From positions 124,001 through 188,000 of the IMG/VR virus record IMGVR_UViG_3300025161_000004: DNA of 64,000 bases, one strand, 5' to 3'. Source of the stretch: a virus. Below are positions 3,866 through 63,934 of this stretch, one piece after another; the stretch's first letter is position 1; each line of letters opens with the position of its first letter. The notes under the pieces are model-generated. The model worked only from the letters and a program-made list of their open reading frames with translations, did not search any database and was not told the DNA's origin. Both the position numbers and the translations under genes were made by a program.

Positions 3866-6433
3866 TTATCCTCTACCTTTTTGGGCAGCTACTGTGACAT
3901 CTACGATTTGTCTCGATAATGCTGATGCCATAGTTCTACCATCAACATTAATTATCGTATTTACATTTAAAGCCACTTCTTTTCTGTCAAATTCAACTTT
4001 TAATGGTTTACTAAATAAATCAGATAATTGAGATATAAAATTATTATTAGAGACATCTGCTTCAGCAATAGTTTTGATTGCTTTAGCTGTTTCAATAAAG
4101 TTAGTATTATCACCTGCCATAACTGCAGCAATACCACTAAAAGCTGTACCAACCTTTTCAAGTGTTCCACTATATAATGCCATAACTGTTAATGCCGCAG
4201 TTAATGCAGTAACACCAATTATACCTGTAGTAGATAATAATGCCAATGATCCTGCTATTCCAGCAAATGCTAATGTTACTGCTTTCATTTTTTCAATAGA
4301 TATATTCTGCATTAGTTTTGTCATTCCATCAGCCATAAACCCAATACCAGCTGCAGCAATACCTATACCAGCACCAATCATTAATATTGCACCTCCAAAA
4401 CCAAGCATCGGTAATGCAGCAGAACTAGCAGCAAAACCGAGAGCAATTACTGCAACAGACAATACACCAAATCCAATACCTAAATAACTTACAACATCTT
4501 TTAACAGTGCCATTTGATCAACATTTAATTCTTTTATACTTTCAGCTAATCCAGAAATACCTTTTGCGGCTAACCATATACCAGCACCTAAAGCAACAAA
4601 AGCAGCACCCATTGCCAATATTGTTTTAGGATTAATTTTTTTCATTTCATTAGTTACATTCTCACTAATACCGCCACTTGGCATTTGTTTTATATTACCA
4701 CCAGCGATATCTTTCATTTTTCCTTTTGCTTTTTCTTTTACTTTTTCTTTCGCTGCTTCACCAACAGTGCTTTGAATTGTGCCAGTAATTTCTTTTTTTG
4801 AAAAATAAGAACCAATCATTTGAGCACTTGTTTTTATTGCAGAAAATGATTTGGTTGTTAAATCCCAAAACTTTTTTCCAGCAACAAATACAATACTAAG
4901 TGCTGCAACCCATTTCATAGCTGATTTACCCCAATCAGGAATAGAATCAAATATATCATTAATACCTTTTAGAATCGGAGAAATTGTATCAAGAACTGCA
5001 TTTATACCTCTTAACGAAGGTAATAATGCAGCTTTCAATCCCTCAACTGTCGCTGCTAATTGTTCATTAAATGTTTGTGCTGCTTTAGCTCTTTCCTCTA
5101 AAGAGGTTTTTTGGGATTTTAATCCCTCGATTTCAGCTTTACTTAATTTAGATAATTCCTTTTTTTGATCACCAATCATTACATAAAACTTACCTGTACC
5201 CTTTTCGAATTGAGCCATACCTTCAATTACACTTCTATCTTCAGGATTAAGTATACCACTACTAGACATTTGCCTGCGCATTTCCTGTATCTTAGCCATT
5301 TGAATTGCTTGTTCAGCAAGTTCCTCTGTTGACATACCAAGTGCTTCGGCAGCTTTTGCTAATATATCTCTCGATTGAGGTGATGCTAAATCAAATTCAA
5401 AGCCCTCAGAAGTTTTACGTAATGTTGCCATTCCTTTGGTCATTTCATTAATTGTTTGCATGAATTTTTTGGGATCATTACGTGATTCATATAGCATTTT
5501 AAATGGATCGGTTTTAGCGAATTCACCACCTAATACTTGTAATTTTGATGCTAAATCAACCGCCCCCTCAAGAGTTCTGGCTTTATCTGCAGCATTTAAA
5601 GTGCTTTCCATATTAATTTTAAATTTCTCAGAATACATTGCCATATCAGACATACCAGCAACCCCTGTTTTAAATCCATATGTTGCTAATCTCTTAAAAT
5701 TAGCATTCATAGATTTTAATATTTTATTACTATTAAGACCAAATTTTTCGGATGAATCAACAATATTTTGAACAGTTTTAGCAGTATCCTCTGCATTAGT
5801 ACCAACTAATTCAAATTTACCAATTAATTCTCCAGCACCTTGAACACCTAATGCAGTTCCTTTTGCTATTCTTGTTACAGCAATTGCAGCTTCTTTATAG
5901 AGTAAAGTTTGTCTACCAGTTAATTCAGAATAAGTTGTTTGAATTTCCGATAGTTCTTGGAGATTAGAACCAAGATATGCTAATTCTACTGCCGAATCTT
6001 CAAAATTTTTGCGTAATATATTTGCTTTATTACCTGATAAGCCTAAATTAAGTATTGTTTGTCTAATTGCCTTATCAGATTGCATTAGATATGTAAAATA
6101 GTTTCTAGCACTATTAACTATACCTTCCCTAATATTTTTTAAATTTTCTAATCCTTGTTTTTGTTTTTCTATTTCTTTTCTTTGTTGTCCATAAATTTTT
6201 AATAGATTTTCATTAGCCTTTAAAGTGTTTTCATCACCTTCAAGAATTTTAGATCTTAAATTTTGAATTTTTTTATTTATTTCACCGTAATCTTTATTAA
6301 GATCATTTAATCTTCTTTGTGTACTAAAAATACCTTTTTGTGTATCAAATATACTTAATAATGTTCTTTCTTCACCCTCAAGAAGCTGATTAATTTTTTC
6401 TTGTAGTTTTAATCTTTCATTATCGATTGCCAT
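3866..6433 (-). CDS. Tail tape measure protein
   Basis: An 855-residue protein with the usual tape measure architecture: an N-terminal coiled coil (about residues 1-110), a long alpha-helical body, and several hydrophobic Ala/Gly-rich segments between about 500 and 770 (for example TILAMGAAFVALGAGIWLAA and IGFGVLSVAVIALGFAAS) that may form a membrane channel on ejection. Tape measure length sets tail length. It lies downstream of the gp26-type/chaperone gene pair, as in other tailed phages, but has its own late promoter and is separated from that pair by a terminator hairpin. Start at ATG 6433 follows the promoter by about 20 bases. Confidence 0.88.
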   Translation of the reverse strand: MAIDNERLKLQEKINQLLEGEERTLLSIFDTQKGIFSTQRRLNDLNKDYGEINKKIQNLRSKILEGDENTLKANENLLKIYGQQRKEIEKQKQGLENLKNIREGIVNSARNYFTYLMQSDKAIRQTILNLGLSGNKANILRKNFEDSAVELAYLGSNLQELSEIQTTYSELTGRQTLLYKEAAIAVTRIAKGTALGVQGAGELIGKFELVGTNAEDTAKTVQNIVDSSEKFGLNSNKILKSMNANFKRLATYGFKTGVAGMSDMAMYSEKFKINMESTLNAADKARTLEGAVDLASKLQVLGGEFAKTDPFKMLYESRNDPKKFMQTINEMTKGMATLRKTSEGFEFDLASPQSRDILAKAAEALGMSTEELAEQAIQMAKIQEMRRQMSSSGILNPEDRSVIEGMAQFEKGTGKFYVMIGDQKKELSKLSKAEIEGLKSQKTSLEERAKAAQTFNEQLAATVEGLKAALLPSLRGINAVLDTISPILKGINDIFDSIPDWGKSAMKWVAALSIVFVAGKKFWDLTTKSFSAIKTSAQMIGSYFSKKEITGTIQSTVGEAAKEKVKEKAKGKMKDIAGGNIKQMPSGGISENVTNEMKKINPKTILAMGAAFVALGAGIWLAAKGISGLAESIKELNVDQMALLKDVVSYLGIGFGVLSVAVIALGFAASSAALPMLGFGGAILMIGAGIGIAAAGIGFMADGMTKLMQNISIEKMKAVTLAFAGIAGSLALLSTTGIIGVTALTAALTVMALYSGTLEKVGTAFSGIAAVMAGDNTNFIETAKAIKTIAEADVSNNNFISQLSDLFSKPLKVEFDRKEVALNVNTIINVDGRTMASALSRQIVDVTVAAQKGRG

Positions 6434-6472: not shown

Positions 6473-6498
6473 AAAACCCTTCGAATTCGAAGGGTTTT
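6473..6498 (-). terminator. Perfect palindromic terminator
   Basis: AAAACCCTTCGAA followed by TTCGAAGGGTTTT: a perfect 26-base palindrome with U-run on exit, two bases after the stop of the 64-residue chaperone extension and upstream of the tape measure promoter. It separates two minus-strand units. Confidence 0.8.
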
Positions 6499-6500
6499 AT

Positions 6501-6695
6501 TTATCTCTTCCTTATACCAGAAACCGATAGCGTTTTATTTTTTCTGGCTTGTTTTTCAAAAATTTCTTTGGTTTCTTTAGCTTCTTTCTCAAGTAGATGA
6601 AGATAATATCTTCTTTTCCATACTGGAATACTTTCAATGTATTCGGAAGAAAATCTACCATGTTTAGTAAGCAGGTAAATTTCTTGAATTACCAT
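6501..6695 (-). CDS. Tail assembly chaperone extension, probably made by -1 frameshift
   Basis: A 64-residue frame (MVIQEIYLLTKHGRFSSEYIESI...) rich in charged helices. It lies between the gp26-type gene and the tape measure gene, where tailed phages encode the second tail assembly chaperone (gpGT of lambda; gp51 is the presumed T4 equivalent). Its frame is open without a stop back to the T9 run inside the upstream gene, exactly one -1 shift away, so it is probably translated as the C-terminal part of a fusion of about 387 residues. A GGAG sequence about 10 bases before the ATG leaves independent initiation possible. Confidence 0.65.
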   Translation of the reverse strand: MVIQEIYLLTKHGRFSSEYIESIPVWKRRYYLHLLEKEAKETKEIFEKQARKNKTLSVSGIRKR

Positions 6696-6712
6696 TTTTT
6701 TATATTCTCCAG

Positions 6713-7663
6713 CTAAAGATTTGGGAAAAAAAAATCTACTCCCATTACTATGGGTGCTTTAAATGTATTACCTGCAGGTGATGTAAATTGATAGTTCATA
6801 TCTACACCAGGGCTAACATCTAATATTTTTTTTCTTAGAGTTAATGAATCCAAAGCTGGCATAGCATCAACAAATCTACTAATATACATTTTATCTCTTT
6901 TACCATCTATCTCGGTTATTTGTGTTTTTAATCTAAGTGTATTTAATTCATTATATTCCTGATTATATGCTTCTTTCATTGCGTCAGCTTTTTTTATTAC
7001 TTCATCAATTTCTCTTGAATTTAATAATCTAAATTTTACAATCTTTTTTCTCATGGGTAATTCTATTGTAAACTCACCATTTTCATCAGGAAATTCGGTT
7101 ATCTCTTTATTTTTTAATTTAGTTAAATCAATAGTTGCCTTAAATTGTTTTCCAGTAAATGGATCGGTGACATTCACATCATAATCCTTACCATATGATG
7201 ATGCTCTTAGAAAAATTAGAATAGCATCCTTATCTCCAACTAATAGATCGCCCACATTAACGTTAGGTGTCTTAATTTTGCGTTTAAGAATCACATCAAG
7301 TACAGTACCATTTTCTATAAGTGCTGGGGTTGTTAAAATATCTTCATCTTTCGATGTAAGATATTCAACCATTACTTCATCTAATCTATTTTTATAAAAT
7401 AAACCCTTTGATGGTAATTTAACAGTATCAACACCAACAATAAGATCGGGATCATTTTCAACACTTATTCTTTTTATATGTTCATCAAAGTTATTATCGA
7501 GTTTAGGAATTTGAGTTTGTGCTGTACTGAATTGATTTTCAGGAATTCCCTTTTGGGATAATGTTACGTTTTCGGTTTTAGTTTTATATGCTGCATTAGC
7601 TTCTTCTTTTTTTGCGTAATAATTTCTAAGCGATTCATTTAGTAATGACGATTCTTGATTCAT
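6713..7663 (-). CDS. gp26: T4 gp26-type baseplate hub / tail assembly chaperone protein
   Basis: A 316-residue protein. Residues about 80-240 fit the T4_baseplate (gp26) family: VKLPSKGLFYKN, an LTSKDEDILTTPALIENGTVLDVILKRKI block, a GDKDAILIFLRASSYG block, and a C-terminal INSREID-like helical part (here LLNSREIDEV). The first 80 residues are polar and probably flexible. The coding end carries a T9 run that can shift ribosomes by -1 into the following 64-residue frame. The family is related to tail tube chaperones, and its position before the tape measure supports that role. Confidence 0.78.
   Translation of the reverse strand: MNQESSLLNESLRNYYAKKEEANAAYKTKTENVTLSQKGIPENQFSTAQTQIPKLDNNFDEHIKRISVENDPDLIVGVDTVKLPSKGLFYKNRLDEVMVEYLTSKDEDILTTPALIENGTVLDVILKRKIKTPNVNVGDLLVGDKDAILIFLRASSYGKDYDVNVTDPFTGKQFKATIDLTKLKNKEITEFPDENGEFTIELPMRKKIVKFRLLNSREIDEVIKKADAMKEAYNQEYNELNTLRLKTQITEIDGKRDKMYISRFVDAMPALDSLTLRKKILDVSPGVDMNYQFTSPAGNTFKAPIVMGVDFFFPNL
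6726..6734 (-). promoter_or_regulatory. Candidate programmed -1 frameshift site (T9 run)
   Basis: The minus-strand reads GAT TTT TTT TTC CCA in the zero frame, ending at TAG 6713-6715. Slipping back one base on T TTT TTT gives an open frame through TTT CCC AAA TCT to the 64-residue extension. Position and geometry match tail chaperone frameshifts. Confidence 0.65.
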
Positions 7664-47392: not shown

Positions 47393-48183
47393 AGAGATTT
47401 GAGTAGGTTTAGATGGATAATATCTTCAGTTAAAGTAGACTTGTTGTAGGTCATAGCTTTAATTTTTTCAATTGACTTATTCACTTTATCTTCGTGAATC
47501 CCTTTCTCCTTTAATTTCATGAGAGAATTTAAACCCTCATTCTTTAAGGTTTCAAATAATGATTTTTTTTCTGTTTCTTCGGCAAATGCGATAATGTTTA
47601 ATATTCTTTTTTCTTCTTCCGATAACGAAGAATATCTTTCGTTAAATTTGATTAAAGCTCTCTCGATAACCAAATCAGTATTGAGTGAACTGTCTAATTT
47701 AACATTACTTTCAGATTCAGCGATAGATATTTTTGGTTTCTTTATGTGTTCAAAAACGTAAGTAAATGAATCATATAATTTATCCACATTAGTCATAACA
47801 CCATAACCATCTAATGATTCATAAATTAAAGTATGAATATTTTCATATAAATTTACCTGATTTTTATCTAGTAAAATGACACTCTCATCGATAAATTTAT
47901 CAAGTTTCTGGTGTTCAGAAATTAAATCTTGTTTGGTATATTTTTTTAATAGGGAAATATTTTCATCAATATATTTAGTGATAAGAGTGTCATTATCAAT
48001 GTGTTTGTTCTCCAAATTAGAGAATATCATGTATTCAGTTTTAAGTAAGTCTGAGTTTTTTAAAATATTAACAAACTCATTAATCTTTTTTTTGCCAAAA
48101 ACATTATCAGTACTCTCAAGAAGCACTTCTGAAAAAGTGTTTGAGATGATAGCTTTTACTATACCGAAATTAGCAATTTTCAT
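47389..48183 (-). CDS. Hypothetical helical protein
   Basis: A 264-residue, helical, charged protein with no recognised family. It begins MKIANFGIVKAIISNTFSEVLLESTDNVFGKKK and has a late promoter. Its ends overlap the transglycosylase gene by four bases. Located near head genes; a head/neck assembly function is possible. Confidence 0.7.
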   Translation of the reverse strand: MKIANFGIVKAIISNTFSEVLLESTDNVFGKKKINEFVNILKNSDLLKTEYMIFSNLENKHIDNDTLITKYIDENISLLKKYTKQDLISEHQKLDKFIDESVILLDKNQVNLYENIHTLIYESLDGYGVMTNVDKLYDSFTYVFEHIKKPKISIAESESNVKLDSSLNTDLVIERALIKFNERYSSLSEEEKRILNIIAFAEETEKKSLFETLKNEGLNSLMKLKEKGIHEDKVNKSIEKIKAMTYNKSTLTEDIIHLNLLKSL

Positions 48184-63441: not shown

Positions 63442-63555
63442 ATGGCAAAGACACCACCGAAACCAACAGGTAATCGTATTATAGATTTAATTACTATTGT
63501 AAATAATTCAAGCTGGATTTCTAAAGTAAAAGCAGTTCTTCTATTAAAGAAATAG
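63442..63555 (+). CDS. Small hypothetical protein (37 residues)
   Basis: A complete frame with a host-type promoter: ATG 63442 to TAG 63553-63555, product MAKTPPKPTGNRIIDLITIV...SSWISKVKAVLLLKK, basic with a short amphipathic helix. It is absent from longer-ORF lists. Promoter and clear start/stop support it; function unknown. Confidence 0.5.
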   Translation: MAKTPPKPTGNRIIDLITIVNNSSWISKVKAVLLLKK

Positions 63556-63629
63556 TAATTCTGCTCAGATTCGAACTGAGAACTTAACTTTCAGAGAGTT
63601 ATGTGTTTGACCAATTACACCACAGAATA
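63556..63629 (-). tRNA. tRNA-Gln (anticodon CTG)
   Basis: Folds with D-arm GTGT/ACAC, anticodon stem TAACT/AGTTA with loop CTCTGAA (CTG), T-arm CTCAG/CTGAG with TTCGAAT. Acceptor pairs 2-7 are good; pair 1-72 is T-T, which fits the weak 1-72 pair of tRNA-Gln. CCA is not encoded. Confidence 0.82.
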
Positions 63630-63637
63630 ATATAAAG

Positions 63638-63709
63638 GGTGAAAGGTCGGTTACGATCCGACGACTCCATTTTCACAGAATGGTATGTTACCATTACACC
63701 ACAATCACC
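63638..63709 (-). tRNA. tRNA-His (anticodon GTG)
   Basis: Anticodon stem CCATT/AATGG, loop CTGTGAA (GTG). It has the His hallmark: an extra 5' G(-1) opposite C73. T-arm GTCGG/CCGAC. The acceptor has two T-T mismatches in the middle (pairs 5 and 6), which is odd. Confidence 0.82.
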
Positions 63710-63713
63710 ATAT

Positions 63714-63788
63714 TGGATGTCGTGGATGGACTTGAACCATCACTTTCAGAGTCAAAGTCTGAAGTACTATTCATTATACTACACGACA
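63714..63788 (-). tRNA. tRNA-Gln (anticodon TTG)
   Basis: Perfect seven-pair acceptor TGTCGTG/CACGACA, anticodon stem TCAGA/TCTGA with loop CTTTGAC (TTG), T-arm GATGG/CCATC with TTCAAGT. T73 is followed by an encoded CCA. Confidence 0.87.
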
Positions 63789-63859
63789 ATATAGCTTTCA
63801 AAAAAATAATTCATATTTATCACTTCTACTTAAAGATATAACTCACATAATAAGTATTG

Positions 63860-63934
63860 TCGAGTAGGCTGGATTCGAACCAGCGACCTCTTGCTCCCAA
63901 AGCAAGTGCGTTGACCTGACTACGCTACTACTCG
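63860..63934 (-). tRNA. tRNA-Pro (anticodon TGG)
   Basis: Perfect acceptor CGAGTAG/CTACTCG, D-arm GCGT/ACGC, anticodon stem CTTGC/GCAAG with loop TTTGGGA (TGG), T-arm GCTGG/CCAGC with TTCGAAT. Confidence 0.92.

Follow-up and report, generated by a model that had tools for sequence, protein, structure and literature searches.

Does the gp26-type gene of a T4-related virus end in a ribosomal slip site, producing, in the manner of lambda G and GT, a pair of tail assembly chaperones? The question is raised by a locus on the minus strand of a 64,000-nucleotide stretch of DNA (the window), which belongs to a virus record of 246,768 bases. The analysis described below makes it very probable that the locus encodes such a pair by means of a -1 slip, and that this frameshift is common in the T4 superfamily.

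Reading frames and slip site of the locus

The gp26-type gene, here called G, occupies positions 6713-7663 and encodes 316 residues. Its 3' end reads GTA GAT TTT TTT TTC CCA AAT CTT TAG, the TAG at 6715-6713 being the zero-frame stop which ends the short product. The run of nine T, reported by the original prediction close to the end of the gene, is indeed located at 6726-6734, the third base of GAT counting among the nine. It includes the in-frame heptamer U_UUU_UUU (6734-6728); at 6725-6731 lies another one in frame, U_UUU_UUC, which is the form of the cyanophage-type relatives. The stop follows the run after 10 bases, and not after 12 as initially proposed.

The -1 frame contains no stop from upstream of the run until a stop codon ending at 6501. 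As had been anticipated, a -1 slip would open this frame across the zero-frame stop, attaching to G a C-terminal extension, here called T (6501-6731, minus strand, starting with FFPKSLAGEYKKM), for a total of about 387 residues (313 + 10 + 64). For a slip on either U_UUU_UUU or U_UUU_UUC, the predicted junction is ...GVDFFFPKSLAGEYKKMVIQEIYLLTKHGRFSSEYIESIPVWKRRYYLHLLEKE..., and the expected junction peptide is FFFPKSLAGEYK in loci of the window type and FF-R-I/V in cyanophages. An ATG-started frame of 64 residues, present in the ORF listing, lies within T (6501-6695, minus strand) and could provide an additional start.

Conservation of frames and slip sites

A set of 240 loci was gathered from collection scans and phage records. 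In the window's own group T was detected in 64 loci, of which 48 are distinct, the window included; a marine cyanophage-type group comprises 80 loci (71 distinct), and 89 loci, 74 of them distinct, make up a third group. Wherever T is detectable, its frame is -1 in the window's group (64/64) and in the cyanophage-type group (80/80), and +1 in the third (89/89).

The comparison with related phages, suggested along with the original prediction, revealed that the heptamer is kept in every -1 locus, since all 48 distinct window-type loci and all 71 distinct cyanophage-type ones have U_UUU_UUY in frame. The U_UUU_UUC form is found in 45 of the 48 and in 70 of the 71, respectively; both heptamers are offered in 42 of the 48 window-type loci, and one valid -1 heptamer in the remaining 6. 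From the codon usage of the same genes, GAT-TTT-TTT-TTC would be expected at a frequency of only some 9%, and by this measure the conservation of the window-type slip site exceeds chance. In addition, the GAT-FFF codons fall, in the window's group, within the five consecutive codons of G with the highest synonymous conservation; for the cyanophage-type slip codons, synonymous conservation is surpassed only by that of the gene start.

A sequencing or assembly error in the homopolymer of nine might also have split one continuous gene, and a single in-frame G-T fusion ORF, with no stop at the junction, does exist in one relative, L013 (2827-3957; GAGTTTTTTTTGCCC). However, the same T9 and stop recur across tens of independent metagenomes, and homologous overlaps are present in finished isolate genomes, so that an error of this kind can practically be disregarded. 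The L013 fusion retains the old TAG in another frame; slipping could therefore make the short form there, not the long one.

In the third group, UUU_U, CUU_U or UUU_C is present in 74/74 distinct loci, with UUU_UGG in 54 and UUU_UAC in 12. T is likewise in the +1 frame in phages of Listeria, Bacillus and Streptococcus, the slip codon being unclear in LIS04. The same frame would be reached by a -2 slip, and -2 slips of the Mu type exist. TTC TTT TGG and CTT TGG allow, however, a +1 movement (UUU or CUU to UUU) and only poor -2 re-pairing; a -2 slip is considered unlikely, and the third group is referred to below as the +1 type.

Two further phages were observed to carry related arrangements. 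In Salmonella phage Vi01 (L112), near position 47,528 of NC_015296, a T-like -1 frame follows gp26, with a slip site, A_AUU_UUC, which is non-canonical and unlike the usual heptamer. In Pseudomonas phage PA5oct (L118), U_UUU_UUC is located at the end of gp26 and is followed by an unrecognised -1 extension of 78 residues, for which no phrog_634 match was obtained.

Probable read-through and possible separate start of T

T could alternatively be an independent, overlapping gene, whose 64-residue product is initiated at an ATG located past the stop of gp26. Such an ATG is indeed present close to the beginning of T in 44 of the 48 window-type loci and absent in 4 only, an ATG is found in the T frame of 39/71 cyanophage-type loci, and separate gp51 genes, corresponding to T as described below, are annotated in public records. 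Against this reading, seven codons of the -1 frame located between the zero-frame stop and the ATG are conserved in the window's group as L-A-G-E-Y-K-K. They vary mostly at third positions, the Ala codon being GCG in 24 loci, GCA in 17 and GCT in 2; conservation of the residues with synonymous third-base changes indicates that the -1 frame is entered by slipping. Moreover, the cyanophage-type loci lack an ATG in the T frame in 32/71 cases and any kind of start codon in 15/71, and in 65/74 +1-type loci the T frame has no start codon close to the slip. As for the annotations, the gp51 of syn9 is made to begin at a Met that lies within the conserved domain; in Aeh1 no gp51 is annotated, although T is present in the -1 frame. 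Together with the retention of the heptamer in all -1 loci, these data make two independent genes very unlikely. T has thus no start of its own in many relatives, yet its frame in the window contains an ATG, as in most close relatives, and some free T could therefore be made in addition to the product of slipping.

Homology, reading frames, slip site conservation and selection on the -1 frame are, in conclusion, supported directly by the compared sequences.

RNA elements around the slip site

A Shine-Dalgarno-like sequence of the GGAGG type, ending 9-10 nt upstream of the run, was found in 46/71 cyanophage-type loci, against a background of 5% of windows elsewhere in the gene. A spacing of 9-10 bases is that known from -1 sites of the dnaX type.

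Downstream of the slip site, a putative conserved RNA fold was identified in the window's group by scanning column pairs (6653-6718, minus strand). It consists of a stem, 6718-6711 paired to 6660-6653, which begins 7 bases past the run, and of an inner stem, 6694-6688 paired to 6671-6665. The two stems covary, with 38 compensatory cells, where shuffles give 18.1 +/- 4.4 and sliding the fold gives 4-11, and several of the compensatory changes are at third positions. As the fold was chosen and then tested on the same data, these controls are only partial; the sequence of the window itself forms both stems only in part, and RNAalifold, run on ungapped alignments, returned no consensus fold. In the cyanophage-type loci the column-pair scan detected no common stem; predicted folding of the 50 nt after the site is nevertheless more stable than that of shuffled sequences (mean z -2.1 to -2.5). 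More generally, the mRNA right after the slip site folds better than shuffles in all groups, which is mostly not the case for windows within the gene.

These elements bear on another possible origin of the fusion, namely transcriptional slippage on T9, which would yield a fusion mRNA with no need for a ribosomal slip. Runs of nine T or A are known slippage sites for RNA polymerase, and the run is maintained at 9 T in 41 and at 8 in 6 of the window-type relatives. Cyanophage-type homologues, however, have only about six to seven T at the site and keep the phase of the ribosomal heptamer; the frequent SD-like stimulator in the latter and the covarying downstream stem in the window's group also argue for slipping by the ribosome. 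Transcriptional slippage is on the whole judged improbable.

Identity of the G and T domains

G scores 38.2 bits against the Pfam model PF12322 (T4_baseplate), above the gathering cut-off of 24.5, and matches phrog_150 with an E-value of 8e-11. No solved relative of G was found by sequence. Its folded part (residues 78-316, 239 aa) is predicted with a pLDDT of 92.4 and a pTM of 0.86; the model appears to be built of two similar halves, each with strands, helices and a beta hairpin, which suggests an internal duplication, as far as a predicted structure can tell. When G was compared to the PDB with foldseek, the HK97 tail assembly chaperone 2ob9 was the top match in one search and had the highest probability among the matches shown in another. 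The match is weak and not significant (E 0.6-3, TM score on the target 0.33-0.48), and a BFVD search also returned tail assembly chaperones, with weak E-values only. Common descent of G with lambda G is therefore suggested, not demonstrated.

For T, no match was obtained when the extension by itself was compared to phage records with Blast, and profiles were therefore used. T alone matches phrog_634 ('baseplate hub assembly catalyst', corresponding to gp51) only weakly, with an E-value of 0.0029. Initial profile comparisons of small alignments with single T4 proteins were not significant, and the link came from hmmscan and from larger alignments: a profile built on T relatives matched one of cyanophage gp51 and the T4 gp51 C-terminus with a probability of 95.6% and an E-value of 1.3e-8. 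On the strength of these profiles, the extension is the C-terminal domain of gp51, and not a new chaperone part. A search by sequence for a solved structure of T gave a chance-level match only. The T domain is helical in the model of the L013 fusion, in which the fold of the whole protein is poor for part of G (pLDDT 71).

The T4 genes and their relatives

PF12322 matches over its full length both T4 gp26 (208 aa, E 8.8e-64) and T4 gp51 (249 aa, E 3.9e-52), and only gp51 extends into the T domain. T4 has thus a two-gene version of G and G-T, and gp51 is, as judged from these matches, a gp26 paralogue with the T domain fused in frame. In agreement with the original statement that the T4 counterparts are separate, the two genes are divergently oriented and without a heptamer, in contrast to the single gene with a slip of the window; the separation is accounted for by gp51 being a duplicated gp26 with T fused in frame. 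The C-terminus of T4 gp26, RGLKEFFELL, resembles LRGLSDFFD of Aeh1, the heptamer being gone because the T4 codons are GAG TTC TTT GAG. Independent genes with no slippery run, which would have spoken against the proposed frameshift had they been the rule among homologues, are thus encountered only in the T-evens.

Elsewhere, U_UUU_UUY at the end of G with T in the -1 frame was found in S-PM2, P-SSM2, syn9, HTVC008M, Melnitz, Cr30, phiM12, KVP40, Aeh1 and phiW-14. In the public records checked for cyanophages, KVP40 and phiM12, short gp51 are annotated as separate genes. The gp26 and short gp51 of cyanophages and vibriophages have the same overlap as the window, with a -1 heptamer which is mostly U_UUU_UUC, and their short gp51 corresponds to the T domain of the window. 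Cyanophage gp51 has been described as about 20% of the normal length and as missing in Aeh1, with no mention of frameshifting (Sullivan et al. 2010, PMC3037559). According to a review, the frameshift from G into T is shared widely by long-tailed phages, 'except T4' (Atkins et al. 2016, PMC5009743). This exception is mostly removed by the present data, and what remains of it is explained by duplication. The proposed link between the T4 and lambda systems is therefore supported; its scope is wider than the single lineage originally considered, as the unrecognised G/T overlap is also found in cyanophages, KVP40, Aeh1, Cr30 and phiM12. No paper linking gp51 to frameshifting was found in the literature searched, which largely excluded subscription journals.

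Proposed function and comparison with known systems

The next gene downstream of T (3866-6433, minus strand) encodes 855 residues and is a putative tape measure gene, on the basis of its position and of a weak similarity (E 2e-4) to the protein annotated as tape measure in Flavobacterium phage immuto. The order in the window is G, T, putative tape measure, and an annotated tape measure is located shortly downstream in immuto, LIS04, Cr30 and phiM12. The position next to the tape measure, the two products and the helical T domain match lambda G/GT, and for this reason a design of the same kind is proposed. Both the chaperone role put forward in the original prediction and its parallel with lambda are sustained by the conserved heptamer, the conserved residues before the ATG, the homology of the extension and the adjacency of the tape measure.

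According to the proposed mechanism, most ribosomes would complete G, and a minority would slip by -1 on the U_UUU_UUY contained in T9, yielding a G-T protein of about 387 residues with a gp51-type T domain. If lambda is a guide, the neighbouring tape measure protein would be coated by numerous G and a few G-T molecules, T would recruit the tail tube or the hub, and both G and G-T would then leave. Working in the manner of lambda G/GT is the best inference available; with no protein or ribosome data, actual slipping, the ratio of the products, the role as chaperones and the direction taken by evolution are all inferred.

The likeness to lambda G/GT (Levin 1993; Xu 2004, 2013, 2014, as far as summarised in PMC5009743) consists of two overlapping frames before the tape measure gene, a slip near the end of the first and a minor product carrying a short C-terminal domain. 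Unlike in lambda, the window uses U_UUU_UUY, and its G is larger and belongs to the T4 gp26 family; no sequence homology between the two systems was detected. In T4, where PF12322 matches both proteins and phrog_634 matches gp51, the names in use are 'baseplate hub subunit' for gp26 and 'hub assembly catalyst' for gp51. Both are listed as hub assembly chaperones by Leiman et al. 2010 (PMC3004832); gp51 is needed for assembly yet absent from the particle, and gp26 is also described as a hub component (PMC3004832). A two-gene solution resembling that of T4 is known in phage 0305phi8-36, where the tail chaperonins gp143 and gp144 have a homologous domain in common, one of the two being extended by an additional part (PMC2147016, which does not mention the T4 pair). 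The third group resembles halovirus HSTV-2, a +1 frameshift in a myovirus tail chaperone, according to what PMC5009743 reports of it; in the T4-type loci, by contrast, homology at one and the same site links the users of +1 to those of -1.

The frameshift chaperone is thus very probably the common state of the T4 superfamily. In the T-evens, a duplicated gene (gp26 as G, gp51 as G plus T in frame) would have replaced it, with loss of the slip site, and the third group would have shifted to slipping by +1 at this position. A wider hypothesis, regarded as likely, is that gp26-to-gp51 frameshifting is ancestral and general in the superfamily, that T4 duplicated the gene and let the slip decay, that another branch changed from -1 to +1 on the same codons, and that T4 gp26 and gp51 are tape measure chaperones, not hub parts. 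Frameshift tail chaperones are already known as a kind of system. New, in the sources searched, are their general presence in the T4 superfamily, the correspondence of gp26 and gp51 to G and G-T, and the use of -1 in some groups and +1 in another at a homologous site. As one recoding event is represented in these phages by homologous variants of the -1, +1, fused and two-gene types, they should be useful to study the evolution of frameshift sites.

Other sequence features

A perfect terminator-like hairpin with an 11-bp stem, present on both strands (AAAACCCTTCGAATTCGAAGGGTTTT), is located at 6473-6498, between T and the tape measure gene; the 70 nt which contain it fold at -20 kcal/mol. Hairpins after T were also observed in some relatives (L012, L018, L142). 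The motif TGTATTTATAT recurs before the putative tape measure start in L014, L015, L016, L144, L147 and others; its reverse complement holds the T4 late promoter core TATAAATA, and it is possibly a promoter element. Finally, four tRNA genes (Gln, His, Gln, Pro) are clustered at 63555-63934 of the window, on the minus strand.
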